A stretch of DNA of 64,000 nt, from positions 372,001-436,000 of the forward strand of contig NZ_LT897836.1 in the NCBI RefSeq assembly GCF_900161835.1, read 5' to 3'. Positions 39,783-50,044 of the stretch are shown here, in pieces (position 1 is the first letter of the stretch; each line of letters begins with the position of its first letter). The notes under the pieces are model-generated. The model did no database searches and had not been told where the DNA came from. It saw nothing but the letters and a program-made list of their open reading frames with translations. The DNA comes from Sodalis endosymbiont of Henestaris halophilus. GTDB taxonomy: Bacteria; Pseudomonadota; Gammaproteobacteria; Enterobacterales; Enterobacteriaceae. Made by a program: the position numbers and the translations under genes.

Positions 39783-42902
<3,120 letters not shown>

Positions 42903-42927
42903 CTTATCTCTTAAATAGAGGAGATGT

Positions 42928-42988
42928 TCGATTATAATAATCGACATGGGTTTTCTCGGACGGAAACTTTATCTTTGTTGAGAAAACC
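42928..42988 (+). promoter_or_regulatory. paired hairpins in the mreB-mreC spacer
   Basis: TCGATTA-TAA-TAATCGA (42928-42944) is followed by GGTTTTCTC (42949-42957) pairing exactly with GAGAAAACC (42980-42988) across a 22-nt loop. The second stem ends 12 nt before the mreC ATG, where a ribosome-binding site would be, and no AGGA-like sequence is seen there. A role in attenuation, mRNA stability or mreC translation is conceivable but unproven. Confidence 0.45.
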
Positions 42989-43000
42989 ACATAGTTTTTT

Positions 43001-44251
43001 ATGAAGCCGATTTTTAGCAGAGGTCCTGCTCTAAAACTACGACTTTTTCTAGCGATCATCATGGCTATATCCATTATCATAGTCGACAGTTGTCTGGAAA
43101 CCTTCGTTAAAATCCGGACTTATATGGATACAGCCATTAGTCCTTTCTATTTTTTAGCCAATGGTCCTTGCCAAATGCTAGATAATGTGTCGCAGACACT
43201 AGCGGCACGTGATAAACTAGTGATGGAAAACCGAGTGTTGCGCAAGGAGTTGCTGTTAAAAAATAGCGAGCAACTTCTGCTGGGTCAGTACAAGCAGGAA
43301 AATATCAGGTTACGAAAATTGCTGGGGTCTCCGTTGCGCCAAAACGAACAGAAAATGGTTACCCAAGTGATCTCTATTAGTAACGATCCTTATAGCAATC
43401 AAGTAGTTATAGATAAAGGTATAGATGATGGCGTTTATATTGGCCAGCCGGTCATCAACAATACAGGAGTGGTAGGGCAAGTTATTGCCACTAACAAACT
43501 CACTAGCCGGGTACTTCTGATATGCGATGTGGCTCATGCGTTACCGGTACAAGTCCTGCGCAATGATATTCGTATGATCGTGGCCGGTAATGGTTGCACC
43601 GAGTATTTACAGCTAAAGCATTTACCTAGGAATGCTGATATTTGTGTCGGTGATGTGTTAGTGACTTCTGGTCTTGGTGGTCACTTTCCTGAAGGGTATC
43701 CGGTGGCGGTTGTATCCTCGGTAAAAGTTGATAACCAGCGCGGTTATACCATCATCCAGGCACGTCTCACGGCTGGTTTGCAGAGTTTGCGCTACTTGCT
43801 GTTGCTGGGGGGCGCCGATTCGTGCGGCAAAGTTTCACGGACACCTGACGAGGTGCATAGGGTAGCTAATGAACGTTTGATGCAAATGATTCCACAGGAG
43901 CTTCCGCATTCTGACACTATAGTATTGCTGACACCGGCAGGAGTGGCCGGTATAACGGACGCCTATTCGGTTAATCCTGGTGTCCTGATTAATAAGAGTG
44001 GTGACAAAACTCAGAGCTGCCGTGCTATACCCCTTCAACATATGGTCAATATCCGACCAGGCACTTATACAAATTCGCACCTTGGTGAAAACTTACTTCA
44101 AAGAAGGCGTACGGCGGTCAACTTGACTAACCGCTTTTCTAACAAAACCGGCGGTAGTCATGGCCGTATCCAGGAGACGGTCTCTGGCGACTCTGTTTCA
44201 AACGCTATACGCCCGCGCCAGCCATTATTTGGCTGTATGGGAGAGCAATAA
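43001..44251 (+). CDS. mreC: rod-shape determining protein MreC
   Basis: MreC is a bitopic inner-membrane protein whose periplasmic domain links MreB to the elongation synthases. Residues 13-33 form the single membrane anchor ([18 protein letters not shown]). A coiled coil follows (about 65-105), then the beta-barrel domains ([46 protein letters not shown]). At 416 residues it is about 50 longer than E. coli (367). The part after residue 285 is low in recognisable conservation, ending [13 protein letters not shown]. No clear Shine-Dalgarno; a hairpin precedes it. Its stop overlaps the proposed mreD start by one base. Confidence 0.94.
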
Positions 44252-44739
44252 TAAAGAGTTATCACCACCACGGAAGTTGGATCTTGTGGCTATCTTTCCT
44301 TATCGCGATGATTTTTCAAATCATGCCCTGGCCGCTACAGTTGTATCTTTTCCGTCCTTCTTGGCTCAATTTGCTACTCATTTATTGGGTAATGGCGTTA
44401 CCTAACCGGGTGAATGTAGGTGTTGGTTTTATTTTAGGATTAATTATGGATCTAATTCTCGGTTCAACGCTCGGAGTTCGTGCTTTGGCGCTTAGTATTC
44501 TAGCTTATTTAACGGTAATGAAATTTCAGTTATTTCGTAATATGTGTCTTTGGCAACAGGCGTTGATTGTAATGCTGTTATCATTCATAAACCAAATGAT
44601 CATATTCTGGGCGGAGTTTGTAATTATAAATATATCATTCCGCCCCGCAATAATTTGTAGCAGTGTCGTGGATGGCGTATTGTGGCCCTGGCTTTTCTTG
44701 TTTATGCGCAAAATTCGCCGGCGATTTGCTGTGCAATGA
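44251..44739 (+). CDS. mreD: rod-shape determining protein MreD, apparent AUA start
   Basis: MreD is a small polytopic inner-membrane partner of MreC and the RodA/PBP2 machinery. From 44284 the match to E. coli MreD is continuous ([19 protein letters not shown] ... [23 protein letters not shown]). Upstream in the same frame, [11 protein letters not shown] aligns with ASYRSQGRWVI, but the codon in the place of the initiator ATG is ATA (44251-44253). GGGAGAG lies about 7 nt before it. With ATA the protein has 162 residues, exactly the E. coli length. The alternative is TTG 44284, which would lose 11 N-terminal residues and begin inside the first membrane segment. Few canonical options exist. 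Confidence 0.85.
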
Positions 44740-44760
44740 AAGATAATGCCAGTTATCTTT
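44739..44760 (+). terminator. hairpin at the end of mreD
   Basis: AAAGATAA (44739-44746), loop TGCCAG, TTATCTTT (44753-44760): a perfect 8-bp stem starting on the last base of the mreD stop codon, with the right arm ending in TTT. It is AT-rich and weak, but placed as expected for the end of mreBCD transcription. Confidence 0.5.
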
Positions 44761-45567
44761 AAGTGATTTATTTGATACTTGGTTCCGTCCCAAGTAGGGT
44801 ATGTCTGTTACAGAATAATTCGTTACGACGAATGTACTCACCTACTGTGGAGGATGCAGTAGTGGTAAATTATATGTATATGTAGCTGTTAGGACGTGAT
44901 AAGGTTCGTGCAACCTTTAATTGTTTTTATTAATCAACCCTCTTTTCTAGGACTTCTCTCTGATATTTCGTATACTAACCTCTGATAATATGGATCGCGA
45001 CATGAATAGTGGCGAATCGTTGTATAAGTCGATCGTTTTAGTTTTATAAATTCACAGCAATAATCGATGTGATTATGCCGTTTATCTTGTTACAGATGAA
45101 CAGTTCATAACTGTTCAGTGCATTTAAGGATCATTTTAAGAAACAAAAATGATTATATATTATAGCTTAATTCCTGTTTAATCTAATGCTATTAAGAATT
45201 ATTGTTATGTACATAATAACAGGGTATTTACAGGAAATCTATTAGAGTAGTAAGCCGATTGTAGTATTGAGGGTATTATACTTATAAAGGATAAATTAGC
45301 CGCATGCTGTCGGTCATGCGGTTATATTTTTAAAATAGGATGGATAAAGTCTTACTTTCCTGTAATGTCTCGGCTAGAGTGTTTTCTTTAAGAGGGCTGT
45401 TAAAGAATCAAGAATTTTTAAGTGTTGTATATCCCCAGGCTAGTTGCGACGATAGGGGATAAATGTTATGATATAAAGTTGTAAATGACCCAGGGGATCA
45501 CAATGGTCAGCACCGTTCACTTATATTATTACTCTATCTCAGTATAATTTAGTATTTATATCTAAAG

Positions 45568-45611
45568 CCGCATCTAGGTCGATATATGACAGTATATCGA
45601 CTTAGATACGG
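45568..45611. repeat. 19-position near-perfect hairpin
   Basis: CCGCATCTAGGTCGATATA (45568-45586) pairs with TATATCGACTTAGATACGG (45593-45611) across the 6-nt loop TGACAG, with one G-T wobble and one C-A mismatch. It is among the longest stems in the window. No T-run follows on the plus strand. It lies about 0.8 kb after mreD in gene-free DNA. Confidence 0.75.
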
Positions 45612-46891
45612 AAAGTTCAACGTTTGAAAAATTGCCCGTATCACCAAGCGCCAGATGATATTAATAGAGAAAAGATTTTTAAGGATATCGTCTTTCTTAA
45701 GCGGCTGTAGGTGAAAAGTATTAAGACAAGCGCTGCAATTAAATTAGTTATATTCTGTATTTGGTTTTTAGTTATGGTCTAACGTAAATTGTGCGAATTG
45801 TCATCATTGATAAGATGAACTAGATTGTAATCTAGTCACGGTTAGCGCATAAATTAATGCTATATTTTATTGCTGAATATATTTTAGAAATAAGCTCACA
45901 GATAAAATGCTACAATGGTAAGTAACAGATCTTTTATTTTTATGGTTCATAAAATGAAAAGCAGTAATTCTAAATTTAAAGCGCAAGATTTAGTTTAAAT
46001 CTAGTTTTTTTCTGAACTTTAATCAAATCAGGCGATGACTACTATCAATATGCACAATACGGATCACCATTCCTAGTATTTAAATTGACTTTGAGTTGTC
46101 GAAAAAAAAAGTTGAGTTAAAAACGGCATCAAAGGATTTTCGCAATTATGACTAGTAGGAATAAAACAACACACTCTAGTTAAAAAGTATTTAACGTCTT
46201 CTTTGCAGTGCCTATTCTACTCCATCCAAGGACGAATTTGGTTGGTAAACTATCAACCAGTGAGCTATGATATTTTGCATAAAATTATGCGTATGCACTA
46301 TTTTATATAACTCTTATTTTTCTAAGACTATACGTGTTGGTCATTATGGGAGCGATATTGAAAAGAGATCTATATGACTTGCTTTTTTGCGAGGGGAGAG
46401 TGAAAATTTGTTTATCGGCAATCTAGGCGAACAGTCAGATTGAGTAGCTTGACAGACAGGAGCAAGTTAGATATTTTATATATATAAGATATTGTTGTTA
46501 GTTTGACATGTAATTCAGTATAGATGTTAAGTTGAACGCGTTAGCTGTACAACAGAAAGCAAAAGGTGGTTTAGGTATAAAACGACTTAACTACTTACTC
46601 AGGAATGATTTATGACAATTGTTGCTTACATAAGTGTTCAAGATCGTTGAGGGTGTTAACCTGTTGTGTTTGGTTGTTTAGCATACTTTATTGGTTGTAA
46701 CTTGCATGGGTTTCAATGTAACTTAATACCTTTAATGCTGATTATCATATAAGTTAGTTGCACAGTGGCTGGCTTATCTTATGGGTCGTCGCTCTAGATA
46801 TCGGTTTGGGATTGCTGTCATAAAATCACCACTTGTGCGACTGCATATGCAGTCTCATCGCACTAAGTAGCAATGCTAAACGTTGTAGTAA

Positions 46892-46917
46892 TCCTTCCCA
46901 TATATGTTTGGGAAGGA
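46892..46917. terminator. terminator-like hairpin
   Basis: TCCTTCCCA (46892-46900), loop TATATGTT, TGGGAAGGA (46909-46917): a perfect 9-bp, fairly GC-rich stem. The sequence after it (gtctttac) is only mildly T-rich. It could be the surviving terminator of a lost gene between mreD and yhdP. Confidence 0.4.
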
Positions 46918-49488
46918 GTCTTTACAGGCCGCGATCATTTTGATCATTATCTGCAACTAGATTTTAATACCGTGCTGGTGAGACAAGAGCTTTAAGTTAT
47001 TTCTCCATCCAGTTTGGATAGCACTAAAGTTTAGAATAGCGCAATAGATTTGTATATAAATTTCTGCACAATCAGCAAGGGTTGCTAACAGCAAAAAGCC
47101 ACTCGTGGATAACGGAAATATTTATCCGCAGACCAGGAATATCGATCTTATGTCATTGTTTAGTTAACTACTATAAAACGCTTTTTGAGTCAAACAGCCT
47201 GGCTTACATTCGATAATGACGAGATTATTAATGCGTATTGGCTGCTTATTCTTTCCGGGTGTATTTTAAATAAAGAGCACCAAGAGAGGTGCACTAACTT
47301 GACGTCAATAAGCTGTTGTCGCATTTTATCGCTGCGAACAGCAGGATGTCTGAAAGATTGATCTAACAGCGCTGATGAATATCGTTATTAACGCCAAAAT
47401 GAGCGTTTTTGTGCGAAGGCAATTTTCTAGTAGCTGTTCTAGTAAAGCGGTATTTTCTCTATGCAATAAGTTAAAGAAAAACTTATGAGCTTAAGCAAGC
47501 TGGGGGGGCGCGCAGTGCATTTACCCCCTTTACTTAGTTTTTTTTTGCGCTAAAGACGCGTTGCTATGCGTAACTCGGGTATTAGTCTTTCCAGATAGTC
47601 ACACATAGCACAAGCTATGTAAACTTGTATGGTGCCCTTTGAGCATATTTTGTATGCTATATTACAAGGGGGACAATGGCGAGGAAAAGATGGTTAGCTG
47701 GTTGCTAGGGTGCTATAATGTGTGTTTAACAAACTGCATGTTTGTTCGATCAGTGTATGTTCTGCTTTTCGCAGGGGCAGTGAATATAAGCTAATAGCTA
47801 TTATTATTTCTATAATTTGGTTATGGTCTAAGTAAGTTTTGTCTAGATATTCTTGCTGGGGTTGCGTCTAACTGACATCATCGATAACTAGTATTGTTTT
47901 TATACTCCTGATATGGGTGCGCATGTTTGCCTATTTTAGTGAGTCCACTTAAACGGGGCCAGAAGTGGATGGTGTTGATATTCTAGTGTTTGTGCATATA
48001 ACCCTAGTAGGTTATAATTTATATATATCATAATAAACGCTAACTTTATGTGTAATCGATGTTCAAGTACAAGATAATCTGCTTTCACATCTATTTTGCT
48101 AGCGTTTATGTTAATATATCCCTTGATAATTAATTAGTTACGTCTATCGCAACGTGATGCTAAAATATAATTTTAACAATTAAGTTGTCGTGAATAAACA
48201 TTCGGGAATAACAACCCGGAAGAGTTATAGGTTCTTTGCATAAATTTGCATAAATAATAACAATTAATTATATGCTTAATTTGTCTTATTTAATTCATCT
48301 CTTGATAAGTAACGCGTGGGTCGACAAAGATCTATACATTACATTATCTTGATGATGTTATTCTGGTTTTATGTCAATAGAGGTTTAAAATCGGCCAGGA
48401 TGCTTAATTCATTGCCCGGTTGTAAAGCTGCACTAGATAATGCAATCTGTCACGACCGCACGGTTTAGCAAAGGGATATCGTTATCACTAGGGTAATGAT
48501 AGATCGATCGGGTACAATGAGAATATTGTGAAAAGTAATTGCACAATGTTAACAGTACGTTTAGGGTAACACCCTACTGTTTCAATAGGTTGTGGGTTAC
48601 TGAGGAGATTTTAAGCTCGTCATGAACGCTACTACAAGGGCTGCGTTCCTTTTTGTTGCACTCACTATGTTGAGGTAATAGGCTCTATATTATAGCGTGC
48701 CGATTTTTTACATGTTTGACTGACAAAATAGACATTAATTTTATCAGGCGCGTGGCACCAGTAAAAATAATGAGTATCCCTTGGATATTAGATAATATTA
48801 ATATGTGTTTGAGTTTTTTATATTTTACTTTTACGACAAGTAATGTCTAGCATGTATTACTCAAATTAGAACTCATAAATGTATTAATATATGAAGAAGT
48901 GTTTTTTGTTTTATTTACTCACAACATGAATTATGTTAAAAAACAGTTTGTTATATGCAAAGAACACTTCTAATTCGCTATAGTAGGTTAACTAATATTT
49001 CTCATTTTAGGCAAACATATTTATTATTCTTTATGGTTTATACACTTATTCTAAACGCTACAGTAATAACGATCTTTAGTTGTAAATTTATGTCAATCTT
49101 GAGGCTTTTAGCACAAAATAAAATCGATTACAGTATAATAAAAGTATAATTTATTTTAGTTGCGTCTAAAACTTGGATTTCTTTATAACTAAAGAATTAT
49201 ATGCAAAATGTTTTCGAGCGCTGCTTTTGCGCATTATAAAATCTTACTTACGAGAAGTAAGTATGATTTATTTAATCTCTAATATTAGTCAATGCGACTA
49301 TATATTACTGTGTATGATCATATCTCGTTTAAGATTTTATGACATCCATTGCTAATAAAATCGTATGCATTGCTAGCACTTTGCGACTGATGCAGATAGT
49401 CACCATTGATTTTTGAGTATAATTATTGTATATTGATCCACCTTTAAATCTGACAATTTAGATAAGCATATTTGCGTTTGTAGCCCGT

Positions 49489-50044
49489 TTGCTAAATATC
49501 GTTAGTTTGCTTGCAGAGATGTATATTAAAATACCCAAATTTAATACTCAAGGAGTACAGACCAGTAATCTATTTTGTCATCGACAAACTGCGTTTTTGA
49601 CAATTGCTATTGCTAACAATTGGCAAGGTACTTATTTTTTTAATTATTTACGCTGGTTAGTTCGTTACCCATGGTTTTATAACGGTAGCGCTGGTGAAGA
49701 AGATAACTTTTATCTGCTAGTTTTTTTTAAGAAACCAAGTTAAAAACATGGAGCGTAAGATTGGATTATCGTGTCAAATTAGGTTTGGTCTGTAACTATA
49801 TTCACATCAGTATTTCTTTCAGCAATACATCGCTGTCAGCATGTATAACATAGTAGTTGTACGGTCAACAGAAAGGCTCTTACCAGCATTGACTCCAATT
49901 TGGGATTCTGTGGTAAGAAGCCTACGACAAAAGCGTATACCAGTAAAAATTATGCTGGAAGATAAGATGAAAAGGTATTCCTACTACCAGGGGTGTTACC
50001 ATTTAACTATCTCAATTACCGGGTGTCTAAGCTGTATACCCTAG
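49489..50044 (+). pseudogene. yhdP: yhdP fossil (AsmA-like envelope protein), internal part
   Basis: Two open stretches remain. At 49489-49743, TAFLTIAIANNWQG resembles YhdP KAYQVAVNLNGNWQP. At 49841-50044, ALTPIWDSVVRSL...IPVKIMLEDKMKRYSYYQGCYHLTISITG resembles PPMNGAEWLALFQ...FPQHITLRTPMLSLGNQQWNNLSIVSQ. Their spacing (about 260 bp) is near that in YhdP (about 300 bp). The strand and position downstream of mreBCD fit. YhdP is a very large envelope protein (about 1266 residues) in the AsmA group that helps move phospholipids to the outer membrane. This is a looser match than the other fossils. Confidence 0.45.

Follow-up and report, generated by a model that had tools for sequence, protein, structure and literature searches.

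The window, the whole 64,000-nucleotide stretch analyzed here, spans positions 372001-436000 of the single-contig genome (1,622,395 bases) of the Sodalis endosymbiont of Henestaris halophilus and carries mreB, mreC, and mreD in the order expected of MreD loci (Table 1). Over the 856,000 sampled bases of the symbiont genome, the G+C content is 36.9%, and passages of PMC7864827 describe the Candidatus Sodalis baculum HBA genome (LT897836) as one contig with 36.8% G+C. Downstream of mreD, where the E. coli order continues with yhdE, rng, and yhdP, about 5 kb (44740-49700; 34.0% G+C) hold no open stretch longer than 79 codons, and DNA comparison of this region with two related genomes (G004 and G026) gave one short match only, near 49647-49739. 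The yhdE, rng, and yhdP genes look lost or decayed in the symbiont.

Table 1. Features of the mreB-mreC-mreD region (positions in the window).
Feature	Position	Strand	Support or remark
mreB, 347 codons	41859..42902	+	TIGR00904, 555.3 bits (cut-off 365.75)
mreC, 416 codons	43001..44251	+	TIGR00219, 335.3 bits (cut-off 92.75)
GGGAGAG, Shine-Dalgarno site of mreD within the end of mreC	44239..44245	+	GGGAG (44239-44243) is the part predicted to pair with the 16S tail
mreC stop TAA	44249..44251	+	overlaps the ATA by one base
ATA at the conserved mreD start column (presumed AUA initiator)	44251..44253	+	use as start presumed
mreD, 162 codons counted from the ATA, then a TGA stop	44251..44739	+	NF008282, PF04093, dN/dS
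Second TAA in the mreC frame	44252..44254	+	relatives have the mreC stop TGA here
GGAAG, weak Shine-Dalgarno-like site 5' of TTG 44284	44272..44276	+	-3.6 kcal/mol
TTG, alternative start	44284..44286	+	the 21 relatives compared have ATT or ATC

The mreD gene shows no visible decay, bearing in mind that a very recent loss would leave dN/dS unmarked. Its product scores well above the cut-offs of three MreD profiles (NF008282, 249.2 against 205 bits; TIGR03426, 124 against 34.85; PF04093, 134.5 against 24), no stop or frameshift interrupts the 162 codons, and no second mreD copy was found in the symbiont genome, where mreB, mreC, rodA, mrdA, and infC are all intact. Compared with Sodalis praecaptivus (L002) over codons 2-162, dN is 0.103 and dS 1.30, giving a dN/dS of 0.079, which is the median of 147 sampled symbiont genes; adding the Ctenarytaina eucalypti symbiont (L048) as a third sequence gives 0.093 (bootstrap 0.043-0.180) for the branch of the symbiont itself. 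An AlphaFold model, built from an 18-row alignment in which the row of L051 is shortened at its start, predicts an all-helical MreD with a mean pLDDT of 88.4, and no solved structure related to MreD by sequence was found at E up to 1.

The initial annotation had placed an ATA at the codon homologous to the mreD initiator, overlapped by one base of the mreC stop and giving a protein of exactly the family length. All three points hold: the triplet lies in the mreD frame, the mreC TAA shares one base with it, and the count of 162 codons is that of E. coli MreD. The frame is open downstream of a stop at 44155-44157, and it contains no ATG, GTG, or TTG between that stop and TTG 44284, the first such codon in the ORF reading. 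This TTG lies 11 codons 3' of the ATA and is the nearest standard start, in agreement with its earlier description as the sole nearby alternative. In the mreC frame, a further TAA precedes the position of the relatives' stop by one codon, so that the ATA is flanked by two TAA triplets. An annotation procedure requiring ATG, GTG, or TTG would truncate mreD or label it a pseudogene.

Comparison of mreD starts in relatives, which the initial annotation had proposed as a check, shows a standard codon in the same column in 45 of 48 related loci (ATG 33, GTG 10, TTG 2), and in the other three (L027-L029) ATG lies one or two codons downstream. This tally covers L002-L049; the 16 loci L050-L065 stand outside it (L050-L060 were inspected separately), and mreD starts from a set of 198 genomes were counted only where these were among the extracted loci. 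Like its counterparts in E. coli K-12 and the Sodalis-type relatives, the symbiont mreD follows mreC with a start/stop overlap, has 162 codons, and carries a Shine-Dalgarno (SD) site, whereas the initiators differ: GTG rather than ATG in E. coli K-12, where it too overlaps mreC by one base; ATG, GTG, or TTG in the 45 column-aligned relatives; and ATA in the symbiont. In four Sodalis-type loci (L002, L003, L031, and L032), GGGAGAG or TGGAGAG is followed by ATGA, that is, the ATG start of mreD over the TGA stop of mreC. The symbiont's ATAA differs from it by a single G-to-A, which therefore both alters the mreD start and turns the relatives' mreC TGA into TAA. Comparison with relatives makes it clear that the canonical mreD start was lost through this one difference. 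The change fits the A+T bias of the symbiont genome, and drift during the shrinkage of that genome most likely fixed the new codon.

To place this case in its genomic setting, 856,000 bases of the symbiont genome were surveyed against 2.0 Mb of the relative G004, which we infer to be Sodalis praecaptivus HS. Of 209 non-overlapping reciprocal best pairs, 153 were kept as ortholog pairs once 48 of poor quality and 8 lying at fragment ends had been set aside. A standard start occupies the start column in 128 of them (ATG 114, TTG 8, GTG 6), and 23 of the remaining 25 have ATG, GTG, or TTG within 8 codons; because the columns were derived by script from two genomes, individual assignments may err. 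The last two are mreD, 11 codons away, and a doubtful pair (1255817-1257592), 20 codons away, which is weakly aligned (48% identity) and whose start was probably mis-assigned. With its nearest standard start this far off, mreD stands out as the sole clear case among the 153 sampled pairs without one within 8 codons. Relaxed start use throughout the genome was also considered, and the same counts give it no support in this sample.

The predicted pairing of the mreD SD site with the 16S tail found in the symbiont genome has an energy of -7.3 kcal/mol and surpasses in strength that of 86% of 128 gene sites and of 99% of random positions. Its pairing part ends 7 nt 5' of the ATA, as the initial annotation had estimated for GGGAGAG. 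The genome also encodes a CAT-anticodon tRNA, which we take to be the initiator tRNA. A second ATA at 44248, in tandem with that at 44251 and a possible start as well, lies just 4 nt past the SD core and outside the conserved column, and the upstream in-frame codons CTG 44233 and ATT 44224 and 44227, tried as mreD starts, were rejected as having no SD (+1.2 to +1.9 kcal/mol). Between -30 and +30, the predicted fold of the start has an energy of -10.0 kcal/mol and is stabler than 84% of sampled gene starts (median -6.9), and no RNA family scored above its gathering score at the mreC/mreD junction (42800-45000).

Passages of PMC10666635 report on coupling between native gene pairs of E. coli: it operates where overlaps are short, and a stop-to-start distance of 38 nt abolishes 80-100% of it. 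From the mreC stop, TTG 44284 is 32 nt away, compared with the one-base overlap of the ATA. The mreC stop and the presumed mreD start share one base, like the pairs with 1-nt or 4-nt overlaps in which those passages describe termination-reinitiation; unlike in such pairs, the overlapping codon is not AUG, GUG, or UUG, and coupling is here a prediction from the one-base overlap.

The strength of the SD, the coupling distance, and published Staphylococcus aureus reporters make weak initiation of mreD at AUA plausible. We give an even chance to the reading that mreD would be translated from the AUA, weakly, with the aid of its SD and of coupling to mreC termination. The initiator would have changed from ATG to ATA by one G-to-A while the gene was retained; ribosomes terminating mreC at UAA 44249-44251 would be positioned on the mreD SD and AUA and would initiate at that codon inefficiently, using the usual initiator tRNA. 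Part of the weakness of the codon would be offset by the strong SD and by the overlap of stop and start in one base, and a low MreD output would suffice. UUG 44284 may contribute some initiation, and mixed use of the two codons is possible. The initial annotation, in which mreD appeared to start at AUA, was right that the canonical start is gone, and AUA is the best-supported reading given the median dN/dS and the strong, well-spaced SD, whereas initiation at the AUA itself can only be presumed. Counting against it are the folded start region, the faster-changing residues 2-12, and the new TTG 44284 with its SD-like site. A stricter version, in which mreD is initiated in vivo only at the AUA within UAAUAA, by termination-reinitiation from mreC, so that drift removed the AUG and coupling plus the SD rescued the gene, is one that we would put forward tentatively, with more doubt than belief.

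Natural AUA starts were called very rare in the initial annotation; rare they are, but already described in S. aureus. Passages of PMC13009471 describe them for infC, ccpN, and citZ, from ribosome profiling for infC and ccpN and from reporters for ccpN and citZ. In poor medium the AUA reporters of ccpN and citZ gave about 10% of the AUG output; in rich medium the ccpN reporter gave as much as 30%. The symbiont mreD resembles these genes in being conserved, in having a strong SD, and in an expected low output. It differs from them in being the second gene of an overlapping pair whose relatives keep ATG, and its use of AUA is deduced from sequence instead of being seen by profiling or reporters. 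Since relatives keep ATG in mreD, a conserved regulatory role of the AUA is unlikely. In E. coli, the AUU start codons of infC and of pcnB (the latter as cited in PMC13009471) likewise have a weak third base and, like the mreD AUA, are probably IF3-sensitive, but they are conserved and regulatory, whereas the mreD AUA is a lineage-specific change. Two published results on weak codons also count against initiation of mreD at AUA. The sister codon AUU reaches about 0.3% of AUG in E. coli (Hecht et al. 2017, as cited in PMC10666635), and passages of PMC10158994 describe, for a defined in-vitro system, weaker initiation when the third base of the codon does not pair or pairs poorly. Among titles and abstract openings, we found nothing relevant on the start codon or translation of MreD, and terms for weak starts were not found in PMC12548453.

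The strongest competing explanation is that the start moved to UUG 44284, so that MreD would lack 11 residues and the ATA would be a remnant of the former start. We regard this as less likely than AUA use but as a serious alternative, stronger than the initial annotation would suggest, because the codon is new to the lineage, follows an SD-like GGAAG, gives a product that still passes the family cut-off, and truncates an N-terminus that is not strongly conserved. Codon 12 of mreD is TTG in the symbiont alone, a codon also found at the start column in 8 of the 153 sampled genes, and MreD begun there scores 235.4 bits against the cut-off of 205. Since ATG, GTG, and TTG together make up 6.46% of sampled codons, however, one of them would be expected within codons 2-12 by chance about half the time. 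The GGAAG beats 87% of random positions but just 27% of the 128 gene sites, being weaker than about 73% of them, while the strong old SD is still present upstream of the ATA. The TTG site is equally folded (-10.2 kcal/mol), and, judging from passages of PMC10666635, little coupling would be expected to survive at its distance of 32 nt from the mreC stop.

The N-terminal residues give evidence on both sides. Eleven residues would indeed be removed by a start at TTG 44284, as had been noted, but the description of them as conserved holds only moderately: in residues 2-12, 6 of 11 are identical to S. praecaptivus, and the 18-row alignment, with its shortened L051 row, shows no invariant position N-terminal to P26. 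The 5 differences in these 11 residues are proportionally more than the 23 in 150 elsewhere (p=0.024, uncorrected), an excess not seen in two sister symbionts with an ATG start (4 of 11, versus 31 and 46 of 150). In addition, MreD of L051 appears to begin at about residue 6, which suggests that a shorter N-terminus is feasible. Against this, a start at TTG 44284 removes residues 2-11 of a helix predicted at 2-24 (residues 1-10 have a mean pLDDT of 62), so that beginning at residue 12 would cost nearly half of the helix.

We consider it improbable that mreD is a very young pseudogene, which recently lost its start, yields little or no MreD, and has a frame that is not yet decayed. The genome is indeed reduced and A+T-rich (1.62 Mb), passages of PMC13345370 report that pseudogenes of Sodalis endolongispinus and its partner symbiont less often start with ATG, and dN/dS would carry no trace of so recent an event. 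The same passages describe pseudogenes as less likely to have an SD, however, and that of mreD is strong. While some 5 kb 3' of mreD are without the relatives' genes, rodA, mrdA, mreB, and mreC are intact, and its uninterrupted 162 codons and median dN/dS also speak against decay. Least probable of all is a sequence error or polymorphism, with the reference A at 44253 being G in the organism or in most of the population, since, although this is one base in one assembly and no same-genus genome was among the matches listed, nearby bases, too, deviate from those of relatives, as this lineage would lead one to expect, the G-to-A is in line with the A+T bias, and consensus errors are unlikely to take the form of substitutions outside homopolymer runs.

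If the AUA is used, mreD would be a conserved structural gene that naturally starts at AUA while its relatives have ordinary starts, and would show a strong SD and termination-reinitiation buffering the loss of a start codon during genome erosion. It would add to the non-canonical AUA and AUU starts already known.

Other starts in the symbiont genome (G000:C1) offer further observations. E. coli infC starts at AUU. The symbiont infC (L207, 961387-961890, minus strand), which is outside the 153-pair set and was examined separately, has ATT at the homologous start place after GGAGGAATAAGGT, so the reduced genome seems to retain the E. coli-type AUU start. This counts in favor of AUA use in mreD. 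In a gene at 1045674-1046681 (minus strand), presumably epmB-like, the first codons of the relative are lost to an upstream stop and the nearest ATG lies 8 codons past the old start, which points to a likely start relocation. Another gene at 163103-163582 (minus strand), which we take to be greB-like, has ATA where the relative has GTG, and its start is not in doubt, because two ATG codons follow directly. Finally, stop-codon usage in the 153 sampled genes has moved toward TAA in the symbiont (TAA 108, TGA 32, and TAG 13) relative to G004 (92, 42, and 19, respectively).
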